Below are positions 10,607-58,003 of a stretch of 64,000 nt of DNA, one piece after another. How positions within the stretch are numbered: the first letter of the stretch is position 1; every line of letters begins with the position of its first letter. The stretch comes from Mesostigma viride (lineage: Eukaryota; Streptophyta; Mesostigmatophyceae; Mesostigmatales; Mesostigmataceae). Location of the stretch: positions 3,498,641 to 3,562,640 of the forward strand of contig RPFO01000165.1 of the NCBI GenBank assembly GCA_009746045.1. The letters are read 5' to 3'. The position numbers and the translations under genes are program-made. The notes below the pieces were generated by a model, which was not told where the DNA came from, ran no database searches, and saw only the letters and a program-made list of their open reading frames with translations.

Positions 10607-10665
<59 letters not shown>

Positions 10666-10673
10666 GGGGGGGG

Positions 10674-10708
<35 letters not shown>

Positions 10709-26608: not shown

Positions 26609-27143
26609 CCAGCAACTGCGTGAGTGACCCCCTCTTTTCCCCCTGTTCCCCCCTGCGTGTCCCCCCCGTTCCGCGCCGAGTGCTTGGGGACCCCGCAGCG
26701 TGTCCCCCCCGTTCCGCGCCGAGTGCTTGTCTGTTTCCGCGTTTGCCTTCCCTCACCGCTGGCCTCCACGCGGGGGCGCCGAGAGGCCCTATATATAGCC
26801 TATACCCTTTGCAATTTTTCATTACCCATATAATTATTTTTGAAAGAGTCTAAAAAAGAAGTAGTGCAAGAGAATCCAAGCAAGCGTCGCCCATCGGGAG
26901 GGCCGGGGCGGGGGTGAAATTGGCGGGGCCTCTCCGGCCCCTCTCGCCGGTCGGAGGTGGATTACCTTCTCCCCCCTCGTTTGCCCCTTCGCCGCCTCCC
27001 GGGGCCGGGACAGGCGACGGCGGCGGTGGAGATTACAGGACTTCTGTTCGGACCGGGGGCTCCGGGGGGTCCAAGGGGTCTAGGGGGTCTAGGGGGACTG
27101 GGGGCTGCAGAGGCTCTGGGGGGGTAGCTCACGTAGTTGCTGG
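26609..27143. mobile_element. 535-bp MITE inserted in element A pol, 2-bp TSD
   Basis: Terminal inverted repeats CCAGCAACTGCGTGAG (26609) against CCAGCAACTACGTGAG (reverse strand from 27143), extending into a CCCCC run. GT duplicated on both sides. Removing the insert and one GT restores the Copia RT sequence 'KQAPRNWHKTF' in frame. GC-rich ends and an AT-rich centre with TATATATAG; no ORF. Confidence 0.85.
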
Positions 27144-29732: not shown

Positions 29733-29733
29733 C

Positions 29734-30601: not shown

Positions 30602-30614
30602 ACCTCCGATACCA

Positions 30615-31359
30615 TGTTGAAAGAACTAATGGGTTTGCCCTCTACAATGCTTGTGATTGAAACCCAAATGTGCCTGTCCTTGCAGGTACAGGCTATGGAG
30701 GATGGAAGCAAAGAGACAGAGACTCAGTTTGAGGCAGAATGATAGTGAGGAGTACCTTTGGCAAGGCTCCTCAGTTGTTTTATTAACTCGAGGAAAAAAC
30801 ACAGGCAGAAAACTGGAATGACCTGATTGGCTGGCTAGGAATGTGCCTAGGAATATTCTCATGTAATACTCAGGCCACCAATCAGGTTAGGTCAGTGTAC
30901 AGGCTACCAATCAGATCTAGACAAGAATAAATCTTATCTTGTAACTGCTGTACAGCCTTATCTTGTAACTGATGTACAGTCTTAACTTGTAACTGCTGCA
31001 CAGTAATCTAACTATTTAATAAAAGATCTCTCTGTGTGTGATCTGATGATGATGAAGTAAATCTGGCGTGAACATATCAGCGCCACATCTGACATGCACA
31101 GTGTACATGTCAATCAGTCAGCTGTCCTGTCATAGATTCTCATCTGACATGTCATAGGTCAGCTGACATAGACAGATTTGTCAGCTGCCTATAAGGATCC
31201 ACTTGGCATAGGTACTAATCCCTGATTACTAAAACTGGCCACAACTTTCTCATTTGTAGGCCAAATCCAACGGGATAAAAAACAGTGGCTCCTGTACAAG
31301 AGCCTCTATCTATCTAGCCAGGTCAGGTGGGTACAAATACAAGGACCATGTCCTTGACA
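30615..31359 (-). repeat. Element A 5' LTR
   Basis: 745 bp, TG...CA, adjacent PBS at 30603-30614. Confidence 0.95.
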
Positions 31360-31360
31360 C

Positions 31361-33089
31361 TTAGACAGCTTGCTGAGATGGGTCCATCAGAGACTGAAGA
31401 ACCTTGTATTGCACTGCTGCCTTCTGCACTAGCTTGGTCAAAGCATCAGCAGGATTGTCAACCCCAGGGATATGCTCAATATTGGCCAAGGAGGACAATT
31501 CCTTAAGAAGGAGATAATCCAAGTCCCTACTTCTGGCCATCTGCCTGTGCACAAACTGCACCATCCCCATGGAGTCTGTTTTGAGAAGAGTGGTAACCTG
31601 AAGTGGCCAAGGAGTGTTAGAAGTCATCTGATGAAGCAACTCCTTCAGATAAAGGCTTGTGTGAATCAGCCTTCACAAATAGCCCTGCATTCTGCCACAT
31701 CACTGCTGACAGCCACCCGTTTGTGCAGGCGACTAAACCAGCTCACCAAACTCCCCAGGCCTTCCTGTCTGAGCACAAAGAGCCCTGCAGCCCTGCCCCT
31801 GACCTTGGAGACCTGCCTGCTGTCCATTGAGCTATCCACATACAGCTCCATGCAAATGGGTTGTGATAAATCCACTGCAGACACCAGAATGCCAGATGAA
31901 GCCCTGACCTGATCAGCCACCTTGGCAGACCCTAGCTCCATCAGCATGTCATCAGGCAACCTGGCTATGACCATAAGGTCTGGCCTGGAAATGCCTGCCA
32001 CCCAAGCAACCATGCCCCTGACCATGGGACACAGTGCCTGTGTGATGACTGGAGGAAGCTTGCTAATGAGGGTCTCTTGATAATCATTGCCCCCCACCAG
32101 CAGCATACGCCACTCCCCCCCCCTTCTTCACCAGTGTGGCCTCCATGCCCAGAAACAGCAGAGGCTCATTCTCCACCTGCCATTGCTCCCTACCCAGAGG
32201 AAACTTGGACTTAATGATGGAGATCAGCTCCTTAAGCCACGACGTGGGAGCCAGCAGGTGCAGGTCATCCCCGTGCAGCGAAGCATACACTGGTAGGTTC
32301 TCCCATTGCCCCAGAAATAGACAGGGGTCTACAGGAGAGACCTTCAAGTTGCAATGCTCCTTCAGGAAACGGTTGAGAGTCTCCCTCCAGATTATTGGAC
32401 TTGACCTCAGGCCCTCCAGGCCCTTGAGGATTTTAAGGAACTCAGTGTGAATGTCCCTTTTCCATACAGCAGGCACCCTGACATAGAAAGGCGTCTTGCC
32501 CTCCCACTTTTCCTGTGCCACATCTGCATCCCCCTCCAGAAATGCCCTCTTGAAGTCTACCACTACTGAGCCATAGTCCAAGCCCTTGTTGAGAAGGCCT
32601 AGAAATACACACAGCAGCAGCCTCCAAGTGTCATGCAGCATGCCAGGGGTACACAACTCCTCAGCAGTGCACTCACCAGTACCCTTGAACTCATTCAGCA
32701 CTGGCCTGACATGTGGTACCTTGACCCCGTCCACCTCCTTCATCTTGATGACAAACTTGAGCTTGAGTAGACGTCGCGCAGGAGGCAGGTCATTGACAGG
32801 TTCCACGCATTTCTTGGAGATCCAGTCCTCCCCAGATTTAATCAGACCCAGTGTGACCTGGGGACACATAATGGGAGAGGACATGAGCTTCACCAGGCCT
32901 TGGTAGTTGATAGGGCTGTGTCCAGCAAGTGAGTGAGGACCAATGCCCAAGCTGCTTGGATGACTAGCAGCTGGCAATATGAGGTCATCAACCAAGGGCT
33001 CCTGCCCCTGGCACACTTGCACACGCTTAACCGACCTGGTTACTGCACGTGATAGGTGAGTGGTCCTGAAATTAATCAGTGGGACCTGA
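31361..33089 (-). pseudogene. Element F pol, RT and RNase H
   Basis: Minus strand: 'RRLLKLKFVIKMKEVDG', 'VVVDFKRAFLEGD' (RT motif A), 'VDPCLFLGQWENLPVYASL' and 'HGDDLHLLAP' (motif C equivalent), then RNase H residues 'YVDSSMDS', 'DVAECRAI', 'LLKTDSMGMVQF', 'GVDNPADALTK'. A C9 run at 32115-32123 and a break near 31655 shift the frame. The terminal TAA overlaps the TSD of element A. The upstream part continues across element B in frame. Confidence 0.85.
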
Positions 33090-33582
33090 TGTCAGGATGT
33101 GCCCCAATATGCCTGACAGTCTTCTTATTGAGTGTGGCCAGTTTCGGGTATGCCGGAACTTAATTATGCAACCTTACTATCATATCAGCCTAGTTGTAAC
33201 CTTTCTATAGAACTTGGTCCCGCCGTATTTGGCCAAGGAATGCAACGGATATAGTGTTCCGGTCGGCAGTTCAGCCGGCGGGACAATTAGTCGACAGCAT
33301 TAATTTCCGTGTATTCGATATTTGTACCATGTGTCGGCGCCTTGGCGCCCCATGTTATCCATGTGTGTTTGTGGTCGTTATTAATGCGTCAAGTCTTGTG
33401 TCAACCGTGGGTCAATCGACTCCACATTGTGTCAACGTGTGTCAAGTGCTTGCCGACCAACAGCTTATATGGCGGCGGCACAATGCACCGGTCTGGTCTG
33501 AGGTGCAAAGTCAATTAATATAAATCAGTAAAGCAATATACATTCGATCTTTAAGCCTTGCCACCAGTCTGGAATTCTGACA
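33090..33582 (+). repeat. Element B 5' LTR
   Basis: 493 bp; same as 35408-35900. Open frames inside it occur twice only because the LTR does. Confidence 0.95.
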
Positions 33583-33885
33583 TGGTATCGGTCGGGGTGG
33601 CCTCGTAAATTGCTACAAACTGATCCGACAATTTGGTCCGTCAACCTGGCCAAATTATCGGCAAATTGACTCCCTGCATCCGACGGCACTTTATGCCAGT
33701 CGTGCATATTCTTGAAGGGCTTCCCTGTATCGAAATTCAAGAACTCCAGTATTTGGACGATCGTCTCTATCTAGTATTCGCTGTTCTCAACCATCGTCGC
33801 ATATTAATATTAATCTTTACCATTACGGATTGAGCGTCTCCGGTTTTCTCGGTTGTGACCAGATTTTAACCTTGCCGAGACAATC

Positions 33886-34767
33886 ATGTCCGCAGCCGCG
33901 ACAGCAGCAGCTACGAAAGCGACGAAAGATCTCAACATCTTACAGGCCTGCAAAAATATTACACAGTTCGACGGCCTCGACCCAGTAAAGTGGGATAACA
34001 CGAAGATTCCTTTTCTGGCCGTAGTGACAGCATTCGGGATGCTGTCTGTCCTGCTTGGCACCGAGGTCAACGAGGAACGCGACCTGATTCTTTTTGCTGC
34101 CCTTTGTCAGTGCCTCATTGGACCGGCACTCAAAGTGGCAAACAGTGTTACTCAGAAAACTGGCAGCGTGGCATATCATCGCATCTGTGAAGAATATGAG
34201 CATCTCAAACTGCAGATGAGCAACCGGCGAGCACTACGCCGCAAGCTCAATCGAATGAAACTGGAACCCGGCGTCACAATGCGGCAATATATAACCGACG
34301 GGGAATTAACTTATAACGACCTGATTGCCACCGGCGCTAAAATGGCACCCGAGGATCTGGCCGAGAATCTGCTCGCCGGCGTGACCGAGGATTTGCTTCC
34401 GTCTCTTGCACAATTAAACCTCGGGGACGGTATCACCCTACAGGAAACTAAGGCGGCACTTCTTAAGGCATGGGACCTTGTGCACGGTAACAAAGATTCC
34501 GCGGAGGCCACCGGGGTGTATCATACCTCCCACTCTGGACGCGGTGGCCGTGGAACCGGCCGTGGCAGGGGGCGTGGCGGTCACAATGGCGGGACCCAGC
34601 GGCCCAGCTGCACCCACTGCGGTCGCACCTCCCACCAGGAGCCGACCTGCTGGTGGAAGTATCCCCACCTGCGCAACACTCGCGGCAACACCGGCGTCCA
34701 CCACACCACCGACACCCCGGCGCCCTCCCAGGAGGCCCCGGACCTCCCCCCCGGTTTCTGCTTCTAA
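33886..34767 (+). CDS. Element B gag
   Basis: 293 residues: Ala-rich start, capsid-like UBN2-type domain ('FDGLDPVKWDNTKIPFLAVV', 'LFAALCQCLIGPALKVAN'), Gly/Arg-rich nucleic-acid-binding stretch, zinc knuckle 'CTHCGRTSHQEPTCW', end 'LPPGFCF'. A C7 run at the end sets the stop; the relative TG2 has C6 there and reads on. Presumed to package the element RNA using enzymes of a complete relative. Confidence 0.93.
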   Translation: MSAAATAAATKATKDLNILQACKNITQFDGLDPVKWDNTKIPFLAVVTAFGMLSVLLGTEVNEERDLILFAALCQCLIGPALKVANSVTQKTGSVAYHRICEEYEHLKLQMSNRRALRRKLNRMKLEPGVTMRQYITDGELTYNDLIATGAKMAPEDLAENLLAGVTEDLLPSLAQLNLGDGITLQETKAALLKAWDLVHGNKDSAEATGVYHTSHSGRGGRGTGRGRGRGGHNGGTQRPSCTHCGRTSHQEPTCWWKYPHLRNTRGNTGVHHTTDTPAPSQEAPDLPPGFCF

Positions 34768-41488: not shown

Positions 41489-42559
41489 TCACGTCTGGCA
41501 GGGTGGGCGACTAGCCGCTAGCAATGCAGGAGGGCCAGAGGACGGGTTGGGGGGGCTGGCTGCTGTCGCCTGCTGCAGTGCAGGTTGAAAAGCTCCAGGG
41601 CCCACGTCTGGTGCTAGCTGGGCCCAGCTGGCTGCTACCCCTTGTTCCCTGTCCCGGGGGAGCTGGATAAGGCGTTTAGAAGCAGAAACCGGGGGGAGGT
41701 CGGGGGCCTCGTGGGAGGGCGCCGGGGTGTCGGTGGTGTGGTGGGCGGCGGGCCCGCCGGTGTTGCCGCGAGTGTTCCGTAGGTGAGGATACTTCCACCA
41801 GCAGGTGGGCTCCTGATGAGAGGTGCGACCGCAGTGGGTGCAGCTGGGCCGCTGGGTCCCGCCATTGTGACCGCCACGCCCCCTGCCACGCCCGGTGCCA
41901 CGGCCACCGCGTCCAGAGTGGGAGGTATGATACACCCCGGTGGCCTCCGCGGAATCTTTGTTACCGTGCACAAGGTCCCAGGCCTTAAGAAGTGCCGCCT
42001 TAGTTTCCTGTAGGGTGATACCGTCCCCAAGGTTCAATTGGGCAAGGGACGGAAGCAACTCCTCGGTCACGCCGGCGAGCAGATTCTCGGCTAGATCCTC
42101 CGGTGCCATTTTGGCGCCGGTGGCAATCAGGTCGTTATAAGTTAATTCCCCGTCGGTTATATATTGCCGCATTGTGACGCCGGGTTCCAGCTTCATTAGC
42201 TTGCGGCGTAGTGCTCGCCGGTTGCTCATCTGCAGTTTGAGATGCTCATATTCTTCACAGATGCGATGATATGCCACGCTGCCAGTTTTCTGAGTAACAC
42301 TGTTTGCCACTTTGAGTGCCGGTCCAACGAGGCACTGACAAAGGGCCGCAAAAAGAATCAGGTCGCGTTCCTCATTGACCTCGGTGCCAAGCAGGACAGA
42401 CAGCATCCCGAATGCTGTCACTACGGCCAGAAAAGGAATCTTCGTGTTATCCCACTTTACTGGGTCGAGGCCGTCGAACTGTGTAATATTTTTGCAGGCC
42501 TGTAGAATGTTGAGATCTTTCGTCGCTTTCGTAGCTGCTGCTGTCGCGGCTGCGGACAT
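41489..42559 (-). CDS. TG2 gag
   Basis: 356 residues, over 90% identical to element B gag by eye, with the same 'CTHCGRTSHQEPTCW' knuckle. C6 instead of C7 near 41690 changes 'LPPGFCF-stop' to 'LPPVSASKR', adding a 70-residue Pro/Ala-rich tail. One codon pair (Asn-Arg) is deleted relative to B in 'RRKL..MKLEPG'. Confidence 0.9.
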   Translation of the reverse strand: MSAAATAAATKATKDLNILQACKNITQFDGLDPVKWDNTKIPFLAVVTAFGMLSVLLGTEVNEERDLILFAALCQCLVGPALKVANSVTQKTGSVAYHRICEEYEHLKLQMSNRRALRRKLMKLEPGVTMRQYITDGELTYNDLIATGAKMAPEDLAENLLAGVTEELLPSLAQLNLGDGITLQETKAALLKAWDLVHGNKDSAEATGVYHTSHSGRGGRGTGRGRGRGGHNGGTQRPSCTHCGRTSHQEPTCWWKYPHLRNTRGNTGGPAAHHTTDTPAPSHEAPDLPPVSASKRLIQLPRDREQGVAASWAQLAPDVGPGAFQPALQQATAASPPNPSSGPPALLAASRPPCQT

Positions 42560-42873
42560 GATTGTCTCGGCAAGGTTAAAATCTGGTCACAACCGAGTCT
42601 CGGCAAGGTGAAAATCTGGAGACAGCCGAGAAAGCCGGAGACGCTCAATCCGTAATGGTAAAGATTAAGACTAATATGCGACGATGGTTGAGAACAGCAA
42701 ATACGAGGTAGAGACGATCGTCTAAATACTGGAGTTCTTGAATTTCGATACAGGGAAGCCCGTCTAGGATATGCACGACTGGCATAAAGTGCCGACGTCG
42801 GATTCAGGGAGTCAATTTGCCCGATAAATCGGACCAGTTTCAGCAATTTAGTAGGCCACCCCGCTCGATACCA

Positions 42874-46690: not shown

Positions 46691-47270
46691 TCAGTAGTCG
46701 AGGCCCCGGAAATCGCAGTACTCATATGTAAACTCAGGATCCTCCATTTCCGGCGTGTGAGCCGGACCTGCACCGGTATGAATCAAAACCGGTGTGTTCG
46801 CCGGGTTTTGCGTCGGATCGAAAATTGCGATGCGCCGACGCGCGACGAGACGAAGAGGATGAGTAAAAATGGACAGAAGCTCCCAGCCCGCGGGAATCCA
46901 CTCTCGCAAGGCCGAAAGAAATGCGACCAGGTTTATGAGGACCTGTCGCTCGCGAGTGCGAACGCCGCGTGTAAGCAGCGAAAGCAATGCGATGTCCTGA
47001 AACAAATTTGTAGTGACCACCGGCGCGCCCCCCGTGCGCGTCGAGGCCCAGTTTTGCAAATTGCGCTGGTACCCGGTGAGCGATGAAATTGCGTTGTCCA
47101 CCTCCTCGATGGCGGTGGTGACTTCGTTCACCGAACGCAGGCCGCCTCGGACCTGGACCGTAAAAGCCGAAAGAATATTTCGGATTTGGTCTAATGGCCC
47201 GCGAATCGCCGGCACCAGCTGCGGCAGACGGGGGTCCTCGGGAAAATCTCCCAGCAAAGGGAGAGCTGCT
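46691..47270 (-). pseudogene. Element F ORF1, C-terminal part (unknown function)
   Basis: Minus strand 'ALPLLGDFPEDPRLPQLVPA' to 'YEYCDFRGLDY' and stop. Mostly amphipathic helix with hydrophobic stretches ('IALLSLLTRG', 'VLINLVAFLSALREW'). Joins 58004-58173 in frame when element E and one TSD copy are removed, giving about 250 residues. No homology recognised. The 17 residues preceding it locally come from element E repeat B2. Confidence 0.65.
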
Positions 47271-47412
47271 TGTCGCGTCTGCGTGCCACAATCTCCGGCG
47301 CCACCATGGCGGCTGGCCACTCAGCTTAATTTGGTAAAACCCAAATGAGCTGAGCTGATGTGCCTGCCTTAACTGCATGCCCTGTGGGGTGGGCGAGGAC
47401 CTGTCCCATGAT
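47271..47412 (-). repeat. Element E repeat B2 (terminal)
   Basis: 142 bp, same as 48552-48693. Contains a near-perfect stem CTCAGCTTAATTTGG / CCAAATGAGCTGAG. Ends the element with GCGACA (minus). Confidence 0.9.
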
Positions 47413-48549
47413 TAAAGAAAGGAGGGCTCTCAGCCGAGGACAAGGAACTGTCCCTCGTGCCTGATGACCACCTTATTGCCTCCCCTGCTATAGAATAATG
47501 CTTTCACAACACACACTTTGCACAGTCTGATGATGAAGCCGCACATGCGGAATTTATTGAGAAAGTTAATACAATTACAACACGTTGATAGTCTCAATAT
47601 CGATGCACTCCATGCTCACGAGCCCGCAGTTAGGCAGCGCTCCATGACATGCTACCGGCCTTGCTCCCAAGGAAAGGGAGAAACACGAAGGCCACTAACG
47701 AGAGACTCGAAGAGACTACACGCTGCGTGAGAGTCCTCTTCGACTATGAACCAAACCATTCGTCATGCCACACGCATGACACACGCCACACTTGTCAGTC
47801 CAGCCAGGAATGCCAAAACTATCTTGCTGCCTGAACCATGCGAATAGAAACCGCATTCCAGTTGCCGTCCTGGCTTTCTACCACACATGCCAACAAAAGC
47901 AGGAAGGCATCCCGACAAATCTAAATTGCTACCCTGTTGCCGATCTCATCTCCTAGAGGCTCCGGCATTTCTGTCCCTGGGAATGTCCGACATTGAGTCA
48001 CGTCCAGCAAGGTCGAAGCATAATATCCTTCAGACAATCTGCACGCTCACACCTTGCGTGTGAGTGGCCCAGCAAACATTGCGTCTAATCGTTCCTTTCT
48101 AGAAGAAATCCCTTTTTAGGGCTGCCAGCGATTTCGCATTCATTCCAGCGATCTGGCTCCGCACCGCAAATTGTCCTTTTCCATTTTCTGTCCAGTCCTC
48201 ATAACGTTGACCCGCTATTCTACACCACAAAGACACCTGGCCTGTCAATAGCCTCGGCGCTGTTGAAGTCCAGCAGTCCAGCTTCAGCTCCAGCTGTCCA
48301 CTAACACGCGTATGATCCTCTCGACGCTGCACACTTGTGCTGCCGTCCGCTCAAGTCAGTGCTGCGCGCCCAGCTGTGCCTGGCCCGGCGCGCGTGCACG
48401 TACACTTTCGTCCGCTCTTATGCTGCAAGTGCTAGTGTCCCCCCCGGTCACTAGCCTTTGTCGAAAATGCGTAGAAGACAAATTCCTTGCGCACGTCACC
48501 GGTCTTGTGCATAGTGGGCGCCCGGATGACATAGCGCGCGTCCGTGACA
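47413..48549 (-). repeat. Element E repeat A2
   Basis: 1136-bp copy of 56863-57998. Joined to B1 through GACAGCTGTC (48546-48555), a 10-bp palindrome that looks like an LTR-tail/LTR-head junction. Confidence 0.9.
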
Positions 48550-48551
48550 GC

Positions 48552-48693
48552 TGTCGCGTCTGCGTGCCACAATCTCCGGCGCCACCATGGCGGCTGGCCA
48601 CTCAGCTTAATTTGGTAAAACCCAAATGAGCTGAGCTGATGTGCCTGCCTTAACTGCATGCCCTGTGGGGTGGGCGAGGACCTGTCCCATGAT
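48552..48693 (-). repeat. Element E repeat B1 (internal)
   Basis: 142-bp direct copy of B2, directly after a purine tract (minus GCGAGGGGGGGA at 48692-48704) downstream of the pol stop. Confidence 0.9.
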
Positions 48694-48720
48694 TCCCCCC
48701 CTCGCTGGCGACCGGCCCCA

Positions 48721-51700
48721 TCACGAAGACAGCGATCGTACCAAGACAAGGGCAGCGGTGACCGCAGTCAAGCTGCGGGAGGTAAACTGCGCAGCGGTGC
48801 ACACTGGACAAAACCAATCCCCCTCCGGAATGCTGGTGACCACGGGCTGCAAGCACTGCATGTGCCAACCACAGTTACACTGATCACACAATAACATGGA
48901 CTCCGCCTGATCGACCCGGTGACAAACCTGACACTGGGCGTCCTTGACTCGGCGAGATGTGTGCGGTTGGAGGTCGTGGACCAAATTGGGCAGTGAGCAG
49001 GGACTGAGATTGCTGAGGTTGTCTGTCGTACGGCTCCCGTCGGCGCCCTCCAAAATTGCCACTCCCGATGGTTTGATAGCCACAATGCGCAAAATGGTGG
49101 GCCCCGCCTCCACATCCAAAGTGTGCTTCAGCTGAGTGCGCAGGAAAACATACTGCCCTGGCCTAAACCGCAGCTGGCGAGCCATGTATGCGCCCCCCCG
49201 GCGCTGAGCGTAACGCAGGGAGTCCCTGTGCTGAGCAATGAACAAGTTGTTCATCGCGATGGGCATGACCTTCTTAAAAGTCTCTGCCCTGGCCAGCACC
49301 TCAACCAAAAATTGCTGAGCGTTGTCGAAGGCCATGGGTTCGGGGTGCGCAACCTGTGCCTCCGTAGGCAAAAGAGGATTACGCCCGAACAGAAGGAAAT
49401 ACGGGGAGAAGGTAGCGAGAGACTCCTGGGGAGACATGCGATAACCCATGGCAATCCATGCCAACTCGCGATCCCACCTGGCCGACTCCGGCACCTGCAG
49501 GCTCCACTTGCGCAGCGCCTGCTTGACGGTCTGCACCAATCTCTCAGCCAAACCATTGGCCTGAGGATGCTCCCGAGAAGTGCGACGGTGATCAATAAGA
49601 CATCCATCCAGCAACTCCTGGAACTCACCCCTGAACTCACCACCCTGGTCCGTGACTACCTCCGCGGGAGCCCCAAACCTGGTGATGATGTCTGCAAAAT
49701 GCTTCGCTGTGGTAGCGGCATGCTTGTCAGCAATGGGGATCAACTCAACCCATTTGCTAAAGCTCTCCACGCATACCATGACATAGAGGTTGCCGTCAGG
49801 GCTCTCCTGAAACGGCCCGCACAGATCGACGTGCCAGCGATAAAACAAGCCCTTGATGGGAAGCGACATCAGCTCCTTGGCACCATGATCTGCGCTAAAG
49901 TTAGCCTTGGTTCGAGCACACGGGACACAGCTGGCCACTACCTGGGCCACTGTGTGTCGCATGTTATTCCACCAATAGCTGGTCCGTACGAGGCTGAGCG
50001 TGCGATTGCCACCCAAGTGACCATACCGCTCGTGGTACGCCTGCACTATAGCAACGCGCTTGTCAGGCGGTGGGACGACCACCCTACGCTTGCCCAACAG
50101 CTTGTACAAAACCCCATCTTCCCAACCATAGGTTGCAGCCCTGTGCTGCACCCTGTTCAACTCCGTCGCCTTCTGAGCAGGAGTCCAATCGACTGGAGTA
50201 GGAGTCAAGACAGCACCCTGCACTTGCTCCAAAACTCGACCATCTAGCCAGATATCAGCGGTGTAGCAATCAGCAAGAGAGCTACGCGCTAAGAGAGCCT
50301 GCACAGCGATCAGCTGCTGCAGAGAAGGATCAATGTCAAAGGACAGAGACCTACCCTCTTCCATAGCGCACACAGCTTTGGATGGCGTGAATGGCGACGG
50401 CCGCACCGGGTCGTCGCTGATGCCGAAGTCCGCCACAGAGTACTCGACACTGCGCCACCACGCCTCCTCCTCATCGTCGGCCGCATACCCAGCAGCGTTC
50501 ACAAAGACCACAGAACCCGACGAGCCCTCGGCACCCATGGCCCGGGCTCCAGTGTGGTCAACAGTGGTAGGCATGGCGTATCGGGATAGCACATCGGCGT
50601 TGACATGGTCCTTGCCGGCCCGATGCACAATGGTCATGTGGTACTCCTGGATAATCATGGCCCATCGGGCGAGCTTACCCGTCAGGTTGGTGTTGGTCAT
50701 TAGCCACTGAAGCGGCTGGTGGTCTGTCACCAGAGTAAACACGCGCCCAACTAAATACGGGCGAAAGTGCTTGATGGCCCACACCACAGCCAGTGCCTCC
50801 CCCTCATAGGAAGAATACCGGCTCTCCGCTGGGTTGTTGCTGCGACTAGCATAAGCAATAACGTGCTCGCGCCCATCACCATCCTTTTGCGCCAAGACCG
50901 CACCCAGTCCTACCTTGGACCAGTCGGTATATAACACAAACGGCAAAGCATAGTCAGGGGCGCGCAGAATCGGGGCCGACGTGAGCTCCTGCTTGATTGT
51001 CTCGATGGCGCGTTGCTGTGCGGGACCCCACGCCCACACGCACCCCTTCTTGAGTAACTCGGTCAAGGGCTTCACCTTGCTGCTGAAGTTCTCAATGTAA
51101 CCTCGGTAATAGCCAGCCAAACCCAAATACGCCCGCACCCCTGAGACATCCGTGGGTACGGCGGCCTGCACAATGGATTCGACCTTGGCGGCATCAGGCG
51201 TCCGGCCACCCGGCACAATCTGATGACCAAGGAATGAGAGGGTCCGCTGGGCGAACTTGCACTTCTCAGGGTGCAGCCGCATATTATGCTCCTCGAGAGC
51301 CAAGCGAACCTGCTCCAAGTGCGCCAGGTGCTCCTCAAATGTCGCGCTAAAGACGATTACATCATCAATGTAACAAGCGGCGAAAGGAAGACCTGCAAGC
51401 ACTTTGTCCATAGCTCGTTGGAAAACAGCACTAGCGTTGCGGTGCCCAAAGGGCATGCGCACCCACTCATACAAATTGCCGCCCCCCCAGAATGCAAGCT
51501 TCCGCTGATCCTCCGGCGCAACTGCGATCTGATGAAAGCCGCTACGCAGGTCCAGCGAGGACACAAACTTCACATGAGGAGATATCTTATCCAGGACATC
51601 ATCCACACGTGGCATGGGGTAACGGTCCACGGGTGTGTGTGCATTCAGCAACCGCAGATCGGTGGCCATGCGCATACCCGTCCATGCCCCGGTGATAGCG

Positions 51701-54700
51701 TCCTTCTTGGGCGCAACGACAACGGCAGCGGCATAGCTGGAGGAAGATTGCCTGATGATACCGGCATCCTCTAACTCCTTGCATTGCTCGGCTACAAAAT
51801 CCAACTCGGCCTGACTCAGGCGATGCTGGCGTCGGAACAAAGGGGTGTCAGTGTCCAATGGAACACGCATGGTCCCACCATTGAAACACCCCAGTTCATC
51901 ACTTGTGAAAGCGAAGGCCCCCCTTGCAGTGCCTAGCCACTTTAGCATGGCTGAGCGCTGCGCATCAGAAAGGTGTTCGCCAATAGCCCAGGGGTGCGTA
52001 TCCGCGGGATCACCCACAGCTACCGCATGTGCCTCAAGATGCGGCGCCCTAGCCGCATCGTCGTGGAACAAGGAAAAGGCTGCCACGCCTGGTGTGACAC
52101 CCACCGCCGGAGCCTCGCGTGCCGCACGGTGTATTACCCGATGCAGCGTGGGCTCGCCGGCCAGCACGGTGCTGGTCAGCAGGGCGGTCATGAGAATGAT
52201 AGTCCACACCTGTCGCAGACGCCACCCCCATGCTGATGAAGTCCCCGTCGCTGCAGGGCGCTTCAGTTTGGCTGCGCGCGCCTCAACCTGCTGAGGCGGA
52301 TTGGCTGGGGACGCCCCCCCAGACTGGCGCACGGCAACCGATGCAAGCAGCACATACCCGACCTGCAACACCGACATAGCCTGGCCTATCAAAGACCAGC
52401 GCTCACTCTCGAGCACGCCCGGCAGCGCCGAGGCCCCGACATGAAAACCCATGCTGGCCTCACGAAATTCTGCGGGTGGCTGCACCAACAGACCGGTGGT
52501 AGTGTCCCAAACGAGACCCTTACCCCGATCACGGTATGCTGTCGACCCTTGGTAACTGACCAGGGTCGGCAGTGCACACATGGGGCTCCCGACCCGGTTG
52601 ACGCGTGCATACGGTGGGCGATCCTCGCTATCCACCTTCTGCGTGACTAGGTGGGAAGGCAATGCTACCTCCGCAGACACACTCGGATGCTGCCTTGCTA
52701 CGGCCCCCAAGACCGCCTGCACATCGGTCGCACACGCCACGTTGGTCCAATAGGCACGCAAACGATGCGTGAGCCCACCCAGCCCTGCGTTGTCACACAC
52801 GATGGGCTCCCCCAGGAGTGCCACGATTGTAGCCCAGTCCTCCCGCACCGCCTGATGTGGGCTGTCACCCGCCACAACGTTCTCAAACAGATACGCAGGC
52901 GGATGGGGCTGACGCGACTGCAACAGTCCCACCACACGCAACAGTTCCCAGAACAGCGCGCTACGCGGATCGGCTAGCCCCCGCCCTTGCCCTGCCTGGC
53001 TCAGGCCCTGGCACTCCCAACCCGCAATTACCAAGTCGATGGCATGATGCCTGCGCAACAACTGCTGCACCTGCACCTCACCGATGGCTCGGATATCTTG
53101 AGGACATTCCCCAAACGGGTCACGCCATGCTGATGGCGGAAACTGCGCGGGATACTCTCGCGACAACACGCCACAGTGACTGAAGTACACCTGACGCGCC
53201 TTGTGCGATGGCTCTACCGCGATGAGTTTACGGCACACGCCGCCTGCGGCCAAAAAGCCTGCAATGCCCCCTCCGATCCCCGCAAACAGTTCCAACACTA
53301 CCGCACCCTTGGCAAAATCAGGGGCCTGCGGTAAGATTGCAGCAGAAAAATTACCTTGGGCCTCCGAGACACCCGGTTGCAGCAAAGTGAGGCCATGGCT
53401 GGCCATCTGAGGAATGGTGATGACGGCTTCAGTTACCCGCTTGCGCATAGCCAGCTGCCGCGTGGACGTCACAGCATCCAGCGACCACTGCGTGCGCATC
53501 TTGGCAATGCTCGCCGTTGGCTGGGGCAGCACCGTCCGATGCTTGTCCCACGCCGATGAGCCCGCCGCCCGTACCTCCACCATGCTGACCTCCACCACGC
53601 CCGCAGCCGCGGAAGGGTTGAGGCGTGCAGCCCCGGCTGAAGAACTGAAGCATGAGACCGGCACGCTGGCCCGCTTCAGGCCAGCCCCATCCCAATCAGG
53701 GATGTAAGATGCCTCCTCCGCCCTATAGTCCACCTGAACCATGGCGCGAGCAAGGACATCCACCCCGAGTAGTGCGGAATATCCACACTTGTTGACCACC
53801 AGCGCATACGCGGACACGGTGGTCATGCTAGAGGCGCGCAACGGATTGAAAATCACGTTGACTTTAACCGCCGTCATAGCGTACGGCTTACTAGCCGGAC
53901 CCTGCCAACCTGACACAGACACGGGGCTTTCCACTAAGCCACCGTTCTCGTAGGTCAGGTTCAGCATGGTGGCCAAGTCCGTGCTGATGACTAGCGGCTG
54001 AGCACCGCTATCAAGCTTGACTGCGCCAACCAACGGACATGTCACCATGTCGCTCCATACATCTCCACAGGCTCCAACTGCTTGGAACGCCATGGACGGC
54101 TCACCATTGGGGTATGGAACCACCGTGGGAACCTGGGGGACTGCACTAGTGCGCTGCTGGCTACTTGTGCTGACCACTCCCGCTTGCACCACGGGCACTG
54201 CGGCTTCTACCGGCTGGCGCCCGTAGGTGACGGACTCAGAATTGCGCAAGGTGCGCACATCATGCCCATCTGCGAACAACTGGATCTCGGACACAACCGA
54301 CCCCAGCCACTCAACCCCCTTCTGCCCGAAGGTGTCGACCACCTGCCGTGCTGAAAACATGGGTACGTCCACAATGAACGGCATTGGGTACACAGGCGCC
54401 AATCGCCTACGCTGCTCCAGCCCAGCAGGGTTCGCATGCTCAAAAGCAGATTGCACCCCAGCCAGCGGCATGGAAAAGGACGCGGGCAACTGCCCGGCAG
54501 GCAACATGGGTGCCTGCTGAAAAGAAAGCGGGCTGCGTGCCTGCTTGCCTTTGGTAGCCTCCGCAGCGTTGATCTCGACGTCACCCGGCATGGGCGCCCA
54601 GAATGGGTCCTCCCGGTACACCGTCTCGAATTGGTTGGGGGGCGCCGTCGCCTCCTCACCATGCTTGATGGCAGCCACCTGGGCTTCCATCGAGTCGGTC

Positions 54701-54759
54701 TTGCCCGCCATCTCGGCGAAGTGGACCGTCTTGATGCCCGCGGCTGGACACTTGTTCAT
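48721..54759 (-). CDS. Element E pol: protease, C5-methyltransferase, RT, RNase H, integrase, PHD finger
   Basis: Intact 2012-residue ORF. Protease about 245-340 ('KLDSGAQPLVIS', 'ALLGVDVL'). Cytosine-5 methyltransferase about 486-806: motif I 'LELFAGIGGG' (489-498), motif IV 'WECQGLS' with catalytic Cys 583 (the usual Pro before it is Glu), motif VI 'FENVVA' (625-630), motif VIII 'THRLRAYWTN' (664-673), motif X 'RWSLIGQAMSV'. The ENVVA and HR.R..W.N patterns are DNMT3-like. Hydrophobic segment 851-867. RT with 'YIDD' (1130-1133); RNase H ('TDWSKVGLGA', 'EGEALA', 'VTDHQPL'); integrase HHCC (C1611, C1614) and D1645, D1704, E1739; PHD finger C4HC3 at C1943, C1946, C1958, C1961, H1966, C1969, C1984, C1987. 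The same frame extends upstream of Met1 through a zinc knuckle 'CFLCDKDGHLSREC'. Likely expressed as Gag-Pol by -1 shift. No stop or frameshift inside. Confidence 0.93.
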   Translation of the reverse strand: MNKCPAAGIKTVHFAEMAGKTDSMEAQVAAIKHGEEATAPPNQFETVYREDPFWAPMPGDVEINAAEATKGKQARSPLSFQQAPMLPAGQLPASFSMPLAGVQSAFEHANPAGLEQRRRLAPVYPMPFIVDVPMFSARQVVDTFGQKGVEWLGSVVSEIQLFADGHDVRTLRNSESVTYGRQPVEAAVPVVQAGVVSTSSQQRTSAVPQVPTVVPYPNGEPSMAFQAVGACGDVWSDMVTCPLVGAVKLDSGAQPLVISTDLATMLNLTYENGGLVESPVSVSGWQGPASKPYAMTAVKVNVIFNPLRASSMTTVSAYALVVNKCGYSALLGVDVLARAMVQVDYRAEEASYIPDWDGAGLKRASVPVSCFSSSAGAARLNPSAAAGVVEVSMVEVRAAGSSAWDKHRTVLPQPTASIAKMRTQWSLDAVTSTRQLAMRKRVTEAVITIPQMASHGLTLLQPGVSEAQGNFSAAILPQAPDFAKGAVVLELFAGIGGGIAGFLAAGGVCRKLIAVEPSHKARQVYFSHCGVLSREYPAQFPPSAWRDPFGECPQDIRAIGEVQVQQLLRRHHAIDLVIAGWECQGLSQAGQGRGLADPRSALFWELLRVVGLLQSRQPHPPAYLFENVVAGDSPHQAVREDWATIVALLGEPIVCDNAGLGGLTHRLRAYWTNVACATDVQAVLGAVARQHPSVSAEVALPSHLVTQKVDSEDRPPYARVNRVGSPMCALPTLVSYQGSTAYRDRGKGLVWDTTTGLLVQPPAEFREASMGFHVGASALPGVLESERWSLIGQAMSVLQVGYVLLASVAVRQSGGASPANPPQQVEARAAKLKRPAATGTSSAWGWRLRQVWTIILMTALLTSTVLAGEPTLHRVIHRAAREAPAVGVTPGVAAFSLFHDDAARAPHLEAHAVAVGDPADTHPWAIGEHLSDAQRSAMLKWLGTARGAFAFTSDELGCFNGGTMRVPLDTDTPLFRRQHRLSQAELDFVAEQCKELEDAGIIRQSSSSYAAAVVVAPKKDAITGAWTGMRMATDLRLLNAHTPVDRYPMPRVDDVLDKISPHVKFVSSLDLRSGFHQIAVAPEDQRKLAFWGGGNLYEWVRMPFGHRNASAVFQRAMDKVLAGLPFAACYIDDVIVFSATFEEHLAHLEQVRLALEEHNMRLHPEKCKFAQRTLSFLGHQIVPGGRTPDAAKVESIVQAAVPTDVSGVRAYLGLAGYYRGYIENFSSKVKPLTELLKKGCVWAWGPAQQRAIETIKQELTSAPILRAPDYALPFVLYTDWSKVGLGAVLAQKDGDGREHVIAYASRSNNPAESRYSSYEGEALAVVWAIKHFRPYLVGRVFTLVTDHQPLQWLMTNTNLTGKLARWAMIIQEYHMTIVHRAGKDHVNADVLSRYAMPTTVDHTGARAMGAEGSSGSVVFVNAAGYAADDEEEAWWRSVEYSVADFGISDDPVRPSPFTPSKAVCAMEEGRSLSFDIDPSLQQLIAVQALLARSSLADCYTADIWLDGRVLEQVQGAVLTPTPVDWTPAQKATELNRVQHRAATYGWEDGVLYKLLGKRRVVVPPPDKRVAIVQAYHERYGHLGGNRTLSLVRTSYWWNNMRHTVAQVVASCVPCARTKANFSADHGAKELMSLPIKGLFYRWHVDLCGPFQESPDGNLYVMVCVESFSKWVELIPIADKHAATTAKHFADIITRFGAPAEVVTDQGGEFRGEFQELLDGCLIDHRRTSREHPQANGLAERLVQTVKQALRKWSLQVPESARWDRELAWIAMGYRMSPQESLATFSPYFLLFGRNPLLPTEAQVAHPEPMAFDNAQQFLVEVLARAETFKKVMPIAMNNLFIAQHRDSLRYAQRRGGAYMARQLRFRPGQYVFLRTQLKHTLDVEAGPTILRIVAIKPSGVAILEGADGSRTTDNLSNLSPCSLPNLVHDLQPHTSRRVKDAQCQVCHRVDQAESMLLCDQCNCGWHMQCLQPVVTSIPEGDWFCPVCTAAQFTSRSLTAVTAALVLVRSLSS

Positions 54760-56594
54760 CAGGTGCCACTTCGTGTCTGCCCCATGCGGCTTCGTGCAGC
54801 GGCTTGGACACTCGCGACTAAGGTGCCCATCCTTGTCGCAAAGGAAGCAGCCCGATTTGCGCGCATCCGTCCTAGTACCCGTCTGTGAGGACGTGCCCCC
54901 CCAGCTCGCGTCGGGGCGGCAGCGTCTTTGTTGCCGCCAGCGGCGTTACCCTGGGTTGCATCATGCGATGAGGCGTTGCGAGACCCCCCTTGGTTCCTGC
55001 TAGCACCGTGGCCGCCTTGCGGGCGCGCTTGTCTTGTGGCAGACGACTCACCCGACTTGGCCTTGGTCAGCGCGTCGACCTTGGCCTGCAGCTCGGCCAC
55101 CACCGTGCTTACCGAGATCCGGCCTTGCGCGTGTCGTCGCATCATGGCCCTGACCTCAATGCACAGTGACCGCAATCGCCACGGCTGGCCGTTGGGCGGC
55201 GTGGGCAGCTCCATCTCCTTGGAGCCTAGCGCTTGCAGCCATTTCTGACACGCCAGCTTTTCGGACCAGTCCTCCACTTCGCCGGCGAACTCCATGAGGC
55301 GCTCGTAAGATTGCTCCGGGGTTTCACCCTCGGCTATCTTGAAACTGCGCCACTCACGCTCTGCCTTGATGGTCTCCACCGGGTATTCCTGGCGAAGGAG
55401 GCCCCACAGTTCCTCGGCAGGGTCGACACCATACATGATGTTGTCATAGTCGGGCTGGCCACGCCCGTCGAAGCCGAACCACACGTCCGTGTGACGCGTG
55501 TACAGCGAGACCTCTCTCCACTGCTCCACCAGCCTAGCCACTCGCCTCAGCGTAAGGCCGTGAAAGAAAAAATGCATGTTGTTCATCACAAACTCATGCA
55601 TTACAGCGCCTTGCGTAGTCATGTATTGCAGATCAATCCATGACTTGTACGCGTTGTAGGCCTGCGCCAGCGTGGCCAGATTGCCGGTTGTGGAGAACTT
55701 CTCGCGCATGTCCACCCGTGGTAGGGTGGGCATCTTCGCGCCTTCCGGTATGAGGCGCACCCTTTGCGGGTACTGCACCCCATCGGCATCCTCCGGCGGT
55801 CGCTGAGCTGCGCGTCCCTGCGCCAGCGTGCTTGGTCGTGCTGCCTCCCGTACTCGGAAAGCCAGCGGCGTGGTTATGTCCTCCATGGGCGGAATGCGCC
55901 CGATTGGCACACTTGACCACCGTGCAGTCGACCCGCCGGTCAGCGCCCCACCGCCTCGCCCAAACGGAATTGAGGCCCCGCCTGGCAGCATGCGTCCTGG
56001 TGCACCCCTGTGTGGGTCCATCGCGCGCGCCAGCCCTGCCCCGTTCTCCTCGTGCAATCCGTCTCGCGCTTGATCGAAAGGCAGGCGCCTGGGCGCCAGC
56101 GTATACTCGCCCCGTGGCTGACCATCCGCCTCACCAAGCAAGTCGTGTTGGGTTAGCGACCCAGCCAAAACCCCCGGTTCCATCGAAGCCCTTCCCGCCG
56201 CATTACCTGAGGTTGGCGGCTGGTCCCGCTCCCTCGGCTCCGCGGCAACACCACTGGGGCCCGGCATCGATGCCTGCCCGTCCCATGGTGTGGACTGCAG
56301 ATGACGACCCTCTACGGCCACCAATCTGTCGGTCACTTCCCGCATCTGCAGCGCCAATTGCTGCTGCAACTGTTGCGACTGTTGCTGCATCTGCGCTTGC
56401 ATCTGCGCGAACAGCGCCACCATACTCAGCGGCGCTTCTTGGTCGCGACTCTCACCCACTGCGGGTACGGCGGGAGGAATCCCGCCATTCGACCCCGGAG
56501 CGGACGTGTCGGCATCTGCTCTATTTGCATCTGCCATGGCTCGAGTCTGCGCTCGCGTCAGTGGCATGCACCAGCTGACCGATGGGCAAAACAA
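54759..56594 (-). CDS. Element E gag
   Basis: Most likely start is the Met at 56567 ('MPLTRAQTRAMAD', a Ty3-type Gag start); an upstream Met is at 56594. Gln-rich coiled coil ('MQAQMQQQSQQLQQQLALQM'), Pro/Gly-rich linker, capsid-like domain ('YNAYKSWIDLQYMTTQGAVM', 'ELWGLLRQEYPVETIKAERE', 'KWLQALGSKEMELP'). The last 45 residues after the G7 run are probably not the native end, since the zinc knuckle lies in the -1 frame. Confidence 0.88.
   Translation of the reverse strand: MFCPSVSWCMPLTRAQTRAMADANRADADTSAPGSNGGIPPAVPAVGESRDQEAPLSMVALFAQMQAQMQQQSQQLQQQLALQMREVTDRLVAVEGRHLQSTPWDGQASMPGPSGVAAEPRERDQPPTSGNAAGRASMEPGVLAGSLTQHDLLGEADGQPRGEYTLAPRRLPFDQARDGLHEENGAGLARAMDPHRGAPGRMLPGGASIPFGRGGGALTGGSTARWSSVPIGRIPPMEDITTPLAFRVREAARPSTLAQGRAAQRPPEDADGVQYPQRVRLIPEGAKMPTLPRVDMREKFSTTGNLATLAQAYNAYKSWIDLQYMTTQGAVMHEFVMNNMHFFFHGLTLRRVARLVEQWREVSLYTRHTDVWFGFDGRGQPDYDNIMYGVDPAEELWGLLRQEYPVETIKAEREWRSFKIAEGETPEQSYERLMEFAGEVEDWSEKLACQKWLQALGSKEMELPTPPNGQPWRLRSLCIEVRAMMRRHAQGRISVSTVVAELQAKVDALTKAKSGESSATRQARPQGGHGASRNQGGSRNASSHDATQGNAAGGNKDAAAPTRAGGARPHRRVLGRMRANRAASFATRMGTLVASVQAAARSRMGQTRSGT
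54760..54895 (-). CDS. Element E zinc knuckle in the pol frame
   Basis: Minus strand in the pol frame: 'DARKSGCFLCDKDGHLSREC', a CX2CX4HX4C knuckle, directly continuous with pol. The gag frame reads the same bases as Arg-rich sequence and stops at 54759. Access requires a -1 shift at the G7 run (54896-54902). Confidence 0.82.
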
Positions 56595-56862
56595 GAACCA
56601 ACAAGCCTAGGTTTCGCTGAGAAGAAGCAACAACCAAAGGCTTTATAACAGGTGTCAAGGATAACGACTCGACTAGCCTGCCAGAAAAAGACAAGAGCCA
56701 GCAAATTCTGGCTAGTTCTATTTTCTTAAAATCTGTCTCAAGACACTTCCTTTACAAACTGTCAGCCAGGCCGTTCCCTGTACTGCTGATGGTTGCTAAA
56801 CACTAAAGCCAACGTCTTGGCTTCGAACAGAAGGAAGCAGACTACCGGGTAGTCTCTTCGAG
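56595..56862 (-). other. Element E leader
   Basis: 270 bp between A1 and gag. Begins (minus) CTCGAAGAGACTACCCGGTA with the hairpin GACTACCCGGTAGTC. No TGGTATC-type PBS seen at the A1 edge, unlike A, B, TG2 and D. Confidence 0.6.
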
Positions 56863-57998
56863 TAAAGAAAGGAGGGCTCTCAGCCGAGGACAAGGAACTG
56901 TCCCTCGTGCCTGATAACCACCTTATTGCCTCCCCTGCTATAGAATAATGCTTTCAAACACACACTTTGCACAGTCTGATGATGAAGCCGCACATGCGGA
57001 ATTTATTGAGAAAGTTAATACAATTACAACACGTTGATAGTCTCAATATCGATGCACTCCATGCTCACGAGCCCGCAGTTAGGCAGCGCTCCATGACATG
57101 CTACCGGCCTTGCTCCCAAGGAAAGGGAGAAACACGAAGGCCACTAACGAGAGACTCGAAGAGACTACACGCTGCGTGAGAGTCCTCTTCGACTATGAAC
57201 CAAACCATTCGTCATGCCACACGCATGACACACGCCACACTTGTCAGTCCAGCCAGGAATGCCAAAACTATCTTGCTGCCTGAACCATGCGAATAGAAAC
57301 CGCATTCCAGTTGCCGTCCTGGCTTTCTACCACACATGCCAACAAAAGCAGGAAGGCATCCCGACAAATCTAAATTGCTACCCTGTTGCCGATCTCATCT
57401 CCTAGAGGCTCCGGCATTTCTGTCCCTGGGAATGTCCGACATTGAGTCACGTCCAGCAAGGTCGAAGCATAATATCCTTCAGACAATCTGCACGCTCACA
57501 CCTTGCGTGTGAGTGGCCCAGCAAACATTGCGTCTAATCGTTCCTTTCTAGAAGAAATCCCTTTTTAGGGCTGCCAGCGATTTCGCATTCATTCCAGCGA
57601 TCTGGCTCCGCACCGCAAATTGTCCTTTTCCATTTTCTGTCCAGTCCTCATAACGTTGACCCGCTATTCTACACCACAAAGACACCTGGCCTGTCAATAG
57701 CCTCGGCGCTGTTGAAGTCCAGCAGTCCAGCTTCAGCTCCAGCTGTCCACTAACACGCGTATGATCCTCTCGACGCTGCACACTTGTGCTGCCGTCCGCT
57801 CAAGTCAGTGCTGCGCGCCCAGCTGTGCCTGGCCCGGCGCGCGTGCACGTACACTTTCGTCCGCTCTTATGCTGCAAGTGCTAGTGTCCCCCCCCGGTCA
57901 CTAGCCTTTGTCGAAAATGCGTAGAAGACAAATTCCTTGCGCACGTCACCGGTCTTGTGCATAGTGGGCGCCCGGATGACATAGCGCGCGTCCGTGAC
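56863..57998 (-). repeat. Element E repeat A1
   Basis: 1136 bp, same as 47413-48548 apart from a few changes. Lacks the B block that follows A2 on the other side. Confidence 0.9.
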
Positions 57999-58003
57999 GT
58001 GCT

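Follow-up and report, generated by a model that had tools for sequence, protein, structure and literature searches.

A Ty3/Gypsy retrotransposon family of Mesostigma viride with a DNMT3-type methyltransferase in pol and split direct repeats

Results

The window, a 64,000-nucleotide stretch of the genome of Mesostigma viride NIES-296 (contig RPFO01000165.1, assembly GCA_009746045.1), contains on its reverse strand an element of 10,729 bp (47271–57999) whose boundaries are common to the sampled copies and whose parts run A1-gag-pol-B1-GC-A2-B2. The termini of the family are TGTC...GACA, the window copy having C as its first base, and a target site duplication (TSD), AGCA on the element strand, lies at the 5′ end (58000–58003) and at the 3′ end (47267–47270) of the element. 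No tRNA was found in the window. The host is a freshwater streptophyte (charophyte) alga, not the chlorophyte-like organism that an earlier reading of the sequence alone had supposed; the Mesostigma protein P0008 matches it with 100% identity at one place. Its genome is 440 Mb, for which reason a prokaryotic or viral origin of the window was rejected.

The gag ORF (615 aa, 54759–56606, reverse strand as are all features below) is so called by position and is without a Pfam match. The 2074-aa pol ORF (measured from stop to stop, 48721–54945) is in the −1 frame relative to gag, with a G-run within the overlap. A weak CCHC zinc knuckle lies at 54802–54852 (Pfam E 0.0018, below cut-off). The domain order read from the pol sequence is an aspartyl protease (weak, 53746–54018, Pfam match below cut-off), a DNMT3-type cytosine-5 methyltransferase (residues 546–880, 52306–53310), reverse transcriptase (RT; 51217–51711, Pfam RVT_1 1.7e-27), RNase H (50641–51030, Pfam 2.3e-38), a DDE integrase (H2C2 and rve, 49564–50073, Pfam 9.4e-17 and 1.5e-10, with D-D-35-E read in the sequence) and a PHD finger (48799–48933, Pfam 8.5e-9), for which BAZ2B is the closest solved chain (2.4e-15). 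In the related protein P0017 the protease match, ahead of its methyltransferase, is above cut-off. An integrase tree had three outgroup rows only and displayed little beyond grouping.

The order protease-RT-RNase H-integrase is that of Ty3/Gypsy elements, with a weak protease and the methyltransferase inserted between protease and RT, and the TG...CA termini and short TSD also agree with that group. In place of an identical whole LTR at both ends, there is A at one end and A-B at the other. Gypsy by its domains, the element is thus a variant in repeat layout, and on the evidence of its copies it is a member of an abundant and very young family (F1). The recent activity that had been suggested for it was borne out: pol is 100% identical over 2074 residues in all 23 scored full-length F1 copies, and 113 near-identical copies of the methyltransferase were scored among 526 first-look candidates in the genome. 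L100 and L101, considered as a further family (66% and 64% match to P0008), proved to be variants of F1.

The sequence-only reading had described an LTR retrotransposon that carries a DNMT3-like methyltransferase of its own between protease and RT, and had proposed a Pfam DNA_methylase search as a check. That search gave a PF00145 match well above cut-off (42.1 bits versus 22), with motifs I, IV, VI, VIII and X in order, upholding the description. The catalytic domain of DNMT3A/3B was the closest solved fold and the best profile match. A 12-sequence profile that included four phage-like enzymes was closer to DNMT3A/B than to DNMT1, DNMT2, DRM or HhaI; with the window domain alone as query against the PDB, DNMT3A/B was not listed at E up to 1. 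In a tree without plant or protist DNMT3/DRM, and with P0008, P0010 and P0016 left out, ten element enzymes formed the sister group of DNMT3A/B (86/85), with phage enzymes nearby. The window enzyme differs from DNMT3A/3B in sitting inside a polyprotein, in having an extra stretch between motifs I and IV in the alignment, and in reading ECQ where they read PCN.

Motif IV thus has Glu-Cys in place of Pro-Cys (ECQ for PCQ; Glu644, Cys645), the same substitution beside a retained Cys that had been noted before. Among 39 viral ORFs examined, from 45 loci, PCQ was present in all 31 in which the motif was found. ECQ is common to the element methyltransferase clade in the tree and hence no chance inactivating mutation; it amounts to a naturally occurring alteration of an active site that is otherwise highly conserved. 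The motif I F-x-G, the Cys, the motif VI Glu-Asn and the motif VIII RxR are kept in the window, in a second Mesostigma family (F2, below) and in P0003, P0007, P0017 and P0018. Chlamydomonas reinhardtii CHLRE_09g398141v5 (P0006) is, like the window pol, a PHD-finger Gypsy protein with the order RT-RNase H-integrase-PHD. Its methyltransferase-derived domain groups with the element clade on a long branch, but lies between RNase H and integrase, whereas that of the window lies between protease and RT, and its catalytic motif is lost. These sequences appear to form a new methyltransferase clade that has Pro-to-Glu in the catalytic PCQ motif, occupies two different positions in pol and includes a degenerate Chlamydomonas member.

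F2, from the same genome, keeps the domain order and has 67% identity to F1. Between the two families the methyltransferase is 65% identical and its flanking linkers 33% and 49%, so that the domain is, in sequence, better conserved than the linkers adjoining it. Rough dN/dS values were about 0.11 for the methyltransferase, 0.14 for the PHD finger and 0.25 for the RNase H-integrase linker; five of eight regions gave no ratio. The value of 0.11 must be read as rough because synonymous sites are near saturation (pS 0.71–0.87) and because the linker, too, is below 1. The conservation of the methyltransferase domain and its ratio are signs of purifying selection on it. Ratios for F1 versus L100/L101 were discarded because the pieces run over one another at frame breaks and so inflate some domains (in L101 the 335-codon domain counted as 351 codons, and RT gave 0.98 in both).

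The repeats are split. A1, the 5′ repeat (1137 bp, 56863–57999), pairs with A2 (1137 bp, 47413–48549) at a spacing of 9449–9450, and B1 (143 bp, 48552–48694) is identical to B2 (143 bp, 47271–47413), which forms the 3′ end of the element. At the B1-A2 joint lies a palindrome, GACA.GC.TGTC (48546–48555), the proposed integrase site; a 29-mer spanning B-GC-A was found at 191 genomic places, against 0 for the control. A polypurine tract, GAGGGGGGG (48695–48703), directly precedes B1. A simple reading in which the LTR is A only was rejected, since the ends and TSDs are at the start of A1 and the end of B2 and the polypurine tract is before B1. Directly after A1 is a 14-nt putative primer-binding site (56849–56862), whose complement lies within A1 itself (57155–57168); such complementarity was reached by none of 500 internal 20-mers of the window element. 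Self-priming LTR elements of the Tf1 type have a primer-binding site complementary to their own LTR. The window element shares with them a self-complementary site next to the 5′ repeat, 14 nt long in F1 and F2, and self-priming is proposed.

F2 has the same layout, with the 2-bp GC gap, the palindrome, the 14-nt complement following A1 and GAGGGGGGGG as the polypurine tract ahead of B1, but its repeats have only short matches to those of F1 (best E 0.003). The A1-pol-B1-GC-A2-B2 arrangement of split direct repeats, which F2 shares although the sequences of the two families' repeats are nearly unrelated, appears to be new. The split repeats, the self-complementary primer site and F2, as well as the PHD finger and DDE integrase, were absent from the earlier reading.

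Most sampled copies have the form A-pol-B-GC-A-B. Twenty of the 23 F1 copies were sampled, and 6 were not assessable; a 4-bp TSD was present in 11 of the 14 assessable copies and absent in 3. The window copy, L049 and all four F2 copies with ends fetched also have a 4-bp TSD. The A|B junction was altered in 3 of 12 F1 copies with a TSD and B2 (by one base, by a truncated A2, and by about 89 bp of filler), and the genome contains 73 exact A|B joints. In L049 a truncated internal end is joined straight to B with a perfect TSD, and the F2 copy C1579 is A-pol-B with the TSD TACT; both structures are expected from the cutting of circles. An unrotated form, B-GC-A-pol-B-GC-A, is seen in copy C133 (L021/L041/L052), and C111 (L009/L029) has a tandem arrangement; either may be another product or an artefact of assembly. 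That the termini are exact while the A|B junctions vary is compatible with integration of end-joined (circular) cDNA via the LTR palindrome; this end structure suggests a circular DNA, instead of linear ends, as the inserting form.

Discussion

DNA methylation is usually directed at transposons; in this case a transposon encodes the enzyme itself, and selection appears to maintain it in F1 and F2, two diverged families in an alga that branches early among streptophytes. Retrotransposons bearing a DNMT are already known from dinoflagellates and Klebsormidium (PMC5890265), in agreement with the earlier reading, which pointed to captured methyltransferases in dinoflagellates and a charophyte alga. 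Among the matches listed in open-access PMC, no title or abstract start concerned a retrotransposon DNMT of Mesostigma. KnitGypsy-Dnmt3 of Klebsormidium nitens resembles the window element by its description: an LTR element of the Gypsy group from a streptophyte, its Pol ORF including a Dnmt3-type DNMT. The figure legend gives it repeats laid out as in DIRS and Gypsy domains (PMC5890265). This comparison is by description alone, in which ECQ, palindrome and priming are not mentioned, the main text being without mention of PHD or Ty3 (PMC5890265); no match in the homologue searches was named Klebsormidium, most matches carrying no name. SymbioDIRS-Dnmt3 of Symbiodinium likewise has a Dnmt3-type DNMT in Pol and split repeats, but is reported as a DIRS structure with a tyrosine recombinase (PMC5890265), whereas the window element has a DDE integrase, H2C2, a PHD finger and 4-bp TSDs. 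The window element shares split direct repeats with DIRS/PAT elements but has a DDE rve integrase and 4-bp TSDs in place of a tyrosine recombinase and no TSD; Pfam searches of gag and pol gave no match to a tyrosine recombinase.

The reading that we prefer, and hold to be probable by a modest measure, combines a young Gypsy family, self-priming, integration of end-joined cDNA, methylation of the element's own cDNA and targeting by the PHD finger. Element RNA would prime itself via the 14-nt site after A1, and reverse transcription would yield linear cDNA with B-GC-A as LTR (polypurine tract to primer site). Joining of the cDNA ends, in a circle or a head-to-tail joint, would create the A|B junction, and the DDE integrase would cut the palindrome CA.GC.TG within an LTR and insert TG-A...B-CA with a 4-bp duplication. 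Two LTRs would give A-pol-B-GC-A-B, and one LTR or a truncated end A-...-B. The layout offers a concrete, testable route for a retroviral-type integrase to use a palindrome resembling a circle junction. The PHD finger may steer insertion through the histone H3 tail (the PHD specificities of BAZ2B, CHD4 and ATXR5, like the motif numbering used above, are general background). The methyltransferase, travelling inside the particle alongside RT and integrase, would mark new double-stranded (circular) cDNA before insertion; we infer that the element's own cDNA is its substrate. Such a mark would match the CG-methylated host genome and avoid recognition as foreign DNA. The Mesostigma genome is reported to contain 5mC, with CG the most abundant site (PMC6947507). 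DIRS-borne DNMT3 domains are described as giving de novo CG methylation in yeast, and KnitGypsy-Dnmt3 as giving no methylation there, a result that its authors call inconclusive (PMC5890265).

A wider generalization is more tentative, possible rather than probable: that a DDE-integrase lineage integrates circular or end-joined cDNA via an LTR palindrome, which would account for the split direct repeats of a Gypsy element; that, DIRS elements being considered as well, it is the retrotransposons with double-stranded circular intermediates that repeatedly acquire DNA methyltransferases, a proposed rule that would follow if a free circle needs a host-like mark; and that the ECQ clade has long accompanied PHD-finger Gypsy elements of green plants, its catalytic function lost in a Chlamydomonas element.

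The enzyme might instead act on integrated copies or the host genome, keeping copies methylated (as self-limitation, or to hide in silent chromatin) or shifting the host methylome, as proposed for Symbiodinium. We regard this as rather unlikely. The dose could be high with 113 near-identical methyltransferase copies, a PHD finger that is part of one polyprotein with the enzyme could recruit it to chromatin, and the host genome is, as reported, CG-methylated (PMC6947507); but Klebsormidium is reported to have such elements and no unusual methylome (PMC5890265). Moreover, CpG transitions make up only 1 of 28 A1/A2 differences, leaving no trace of methylation-driven mutation, a result that tests little because the differences are few and young. 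Particle packaging is the expected fate of a domain that an LTR element encodes between protease and RT, which also argues against action on the host or integrated copies. The same strain has a published methylome and assembly, so that the effect of a transposon-borne methyltransferase on its own copies is directly testable.

Somewhat less likely again is that the domain is catalytically dead or changed by the Pro-to-Glu substitution beside the nucleophile, and is kept for DNA or RNA binding or for structure; DNMT3L is a precedent for a catalytically dead, retained domain. The replacement of PCQ by ECQ fits this, as does P0006, in which the domain remains in pol without a catalytic motif. On the other side stand the Cys and the residues of motifs I, VI and VIII kept in the window, F2 and the four proteins named above, the clade-wide occurrence of ECQ, and the F1/F2 dN/dS of about 0.11.

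Our preference for end-joined cDNA has to be weighed against a DIRS-type process, in which transcription would continue past A2 as far as B2 and the resulting RNA would provide, at the B1-A2 joint, the template for a circle. The repeat order is as described for DIRS elements (PMC5890265) and the 73 exact A|B joints would accord with it, but this process seems quite improbable given a DDE integrase and 4-bp TSDs instead of a tyrosine recombinase match in gag or pol, and A|B joints variable in 3 of 12 copies with a TSD, which favor end joining. Least probable is that the split repeats arose by ordinary linear integration with later recombination or assembly error and no circular step: tandem and unrotated copies do occur (L009/L029, L021/L041) and a large repeat-rich assembly can mislead, but perfect 4-bp TSDs lie outside A1 and B2 (11/14 assessable F1 copies, 4/4 F2), F2 has the same layout with nearly unrelated sequence, and the A|B junctions are altered while the termini are exact.

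Domain architecture of the element

The element lies on the minus strand and runs, in its own orientation, from 57999 down to 47271 as A1 (1137 bp), gag, pol, B1 (143 bp), GC, A2 and B2, where A and B are split direct repeats and B2 is identical to B1. Its pol ORF (48721-54945, minus strand; 2074 codons, stop to stop) is the one picked out in the sequence-only reading, whose coordinates cover only the stretch starting at Met63. The methyltransferase placed in pol by that reading was borne out by a Pfam match to DNA_methylase (E 9.9e-11). Pfam also matched reverse transcriptase (RT), RNase H, H2C2, rve integrase and a C-terminal PHD finger, with weak matches to a zinc knuckle and an aspartyl protease; the translation has YIDD in the RT and D-D-35-E in the integrase. 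The 615-aa ORF upstream of pol is gag by position and had no Pfam match. The reading frame of pol is -1 with respect to this ORF, with a G-run inside the overlap both here and in F2 (a second, diverged family in the genome; the window element's Ty3/Gypsy family is F1), and a -1 frameshift may occur there.

Split repeats and integration

Both ends were sampled in 20 of 23 F1 copies. A perfect 4-bp duplication around TGTC...GACA was present in 11; three (L019, L026, L028) had none though both ends were located, and six (L009, L014, L018, L020, L021, L027) were tandem, truncated, N-containing or without B2 and so could not be judged. The window copy has AGCA on either side, and its first base is C versus T in other copies. 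Exact matches to the B-GC-A joint lie at 191 places in the genome and to the A|B joint at 73, with none for either control. The F1 stretch after A1 has a 14-nt complement; among 500 random internal F1 20-mers the maximum was 12, and none reached 14.

With a polypurine tract before B1 and a primer-binding site after A1, reverse transcription from the first to the second would be expected to build an LTR of the form B-GC-A, relative to which the inserted form is rotated by B. We propose that the two cDNA ends would be joined, creating the A|B junction, and that the palindrome would then be cut in one LTR, yielding A-pol-B-GC-A-B with TG...CA ends. Such end joining and cutting predict that A|B is free to vary while the outer ends are exact. 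Among the 12 F1 copies that have both a duplication and B2 (the window copy and 11 of those sampled), the A|B joint was plain in nine and altered in three, by one base (L012), a truncated A2 (L013) or ~89 bp of filler (L023). In L049 a truncated internal end is joined to B, with the duplication GAAC (A1 read in part). The altered joints and L049 fit what would be expected if both complete and incomplete cDNA underwent end joining. Counting against this scheme are an unrotated copy (C133) and a tandem copy (C111), neither needed by the model, and the three copies lacking duplications. A circle would be the simplest joined form, though a head-to-tail joint of two molecules may serve instead. The L023 filler, before B2, includes the 3' flank of L021 in reverse-complement orientation; either the A|B junction took up DNA from elsewhere or there is a link between the contigs.

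F2 has repeats (A 1127 bp, B 136 bp) with only a few short matches to those of F1 (best E 0.003). Its B1-GC-A2 lies within the palindrome CGCGACA.GC.TGTCGCG, A2 is joined to B2, a polypurine tract lies immediately ahead of B1, and a 14-nt stretch immediately after A1 is complementary to a site within A. All four F2 copies with fetched ends had 4-bp duplications (CTTG, GGCC, TCTC, TACT), GGCC and TCTC with the boundary taken one base away from the printed cut. Other sequence interrupts A1 in copy C777, and copy C1579 is A-pol-B without A2-B2.

An ECQ methyltransferase clade in two pol positions

Motif IV, around the catalytic Cys, reads Glu-Cys-Gln (ECQ) in the window element, F2 and the database relatives P0003, P0007, P0009, P0010, P0017 and P0018; it is PCQ in P0004 and P0005 and lost in P0006 (Chlamydomonas reinhardtii CHLRE_09g398141v5). 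A scan of 39 viral ORFs from 45 loci, permitting either E or P, found PCQ in all 31 that showed the motif. P0006 and the ECQ rows included in the tree form one group (92/92; fork unstarred), inside which P0003, P0018 and P0006, a long branch, are nested (93/88; fork unstarred). The domain lies before the integrase, or between RNase H and integrase, in these three, and after the protease and before the RT in the window element and F2; P0017 has a protease and then the methyltransferase. One enzyme clade thus occupies two places in pol, which both a single capture with a later move and two captures would fit. Pfam alone placed the methyltransferase above cut-off in the window element, P0004, P0007, P0016 and P0017, and not in P0003, P0005, P0018 or P0006. 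It found the PHD finger in the window element, P0003, P0018 and P0006, and the F2 alignment covers the PHD stretch of the window pol.

Signs of selection on the enzyme and its possible role

In F2 (e.g. locus L098) the first ORF, 1081 aa long, has a C-terminal part that aligns at ~40% to the zinc-knuckle/protease part of the window pol; the second, of 1642 aa (methyltransferase-RT-RNase H-integrase-PHD), is 67% identical to that pol. F1 and F2 share 65% identity in the methyltransferase, 82% in the RT, 76% in the integrase and 65% in the PHD finger, versus only 33, 49 and 41% in linkers. The methyltransferase dN/dS is ~0.11, with synonymous sites near saturation; the ratio for the RNase H-integrase linker is likewise below 1 (0.25), so the identity contrast is the more telling, and we read it as pointing to selection that maintains the methyltransferase. 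Two F1 relatives, L100 and L101, differ from the window element by ~4-5% over the first 450 pol residues and are identical or nearly so in large integrase parts; they are perhaps recombinant.

The closest solved relatives of the PHD finger are BAZ2B, Lid, CHD4, BAZ2A, an MLL3 homologue and ATXR5, several of which read H3 unmodified at K4; the finger may steer the element to or away from certain chromatin.

The Mesostigma genome is methylated, CG being the most abundant site (PMC6947507). DIRS-borne DNMT3 domains gave de novo CG methylation in yeast; the Klebsormidium domain gave none, a result its authors call inconclusive, and they suggest cDNA methylation as a role (PMC5890265). Following them, the methyltransferase would be carried alongside RT and integrase and would mark the free DNA. 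Split repeats are common to DNMT-bearing DIRS, KnitGypsy (the Klebsormidium element) and the Mesostigma elements, and other DIRS elements carry adenine methyltransferases (PMC5890265). A correlation between split repeats and carried methyltransferases is worth testing; the Symbiodinium LINE case is at odds with it.

DNMT-bearing retrotransposons as a kind have been known since 2018, and retrotransposon-borne DNMT3 is named again in a 2025 paper whose main text mentions neither Mesostigma nor Gypsy (PMC12344493). Among the titles and abstract openings listed by searches of the open-access literature, none reported a Mesostigma DNMT element family; within that scope, the new parts are the ECQ clade, its spread, its two pol positions and the interpretation of the repeats through the palindrome.

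Host genome, copy number and other window features

The genome searched comprises 439,911,974 bp in 2243 contigs; the published size for Mesostigma viride NIES-296 is 441,847,188 (PMC6947507). The Mesostigma EukProt protein P0008 matches it at 100% identity in one place and 99% elsewhere, and a second Mesostigma protein, P0016, shares 99% identity with the window pol across the 28% of the query that was matched. The host is therefore a streptophyte alga, not the chlorophyte-like one first supposed. The matched part of P0019, a 159-aa EukProt protein from the dinoflagellate Prorocentrum lima, shares 99% identity with the C-terminal part of the methyltransferase; cross-contamination is the likeliest explanation, though transfer may account for it.

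All 23 scored full-length pol copies (from 6080 first-look candidates) were 100% identical over 2074 residues, and comparing A1 with A2 across 16 copies (the window copy and 15 of the 20 sampled) gave 28 differences in 18,136 positions; the assembly is polished, so copy identity may be overstated. A search with the methyltransferase domain gave 526 first-look candidates; 113 of these were scored, none with an E-value weaker than 5.8e-240. Their open frames vary (2074, 1195, 1042 aa and others), indicating that many carry breaks elsewhere. The exact lengths 1042 and 1195 aa are shared by many copies, which suggests broken sub-families in which the break was copied along.

Elsewhere in the window, a 1020-aa open frame (17911-20973, minus strand) had no Pfam match at E up to 0.001, and 10001-12000 combines strong local GC skew (0.41), a GC content of 0.64 and two overlapping open frames. 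Pieces of Copia-type retrotransposons (RVT_2, copia gag, rve, SH3) crowd the window, at 25548-34767 and 41489-42586.
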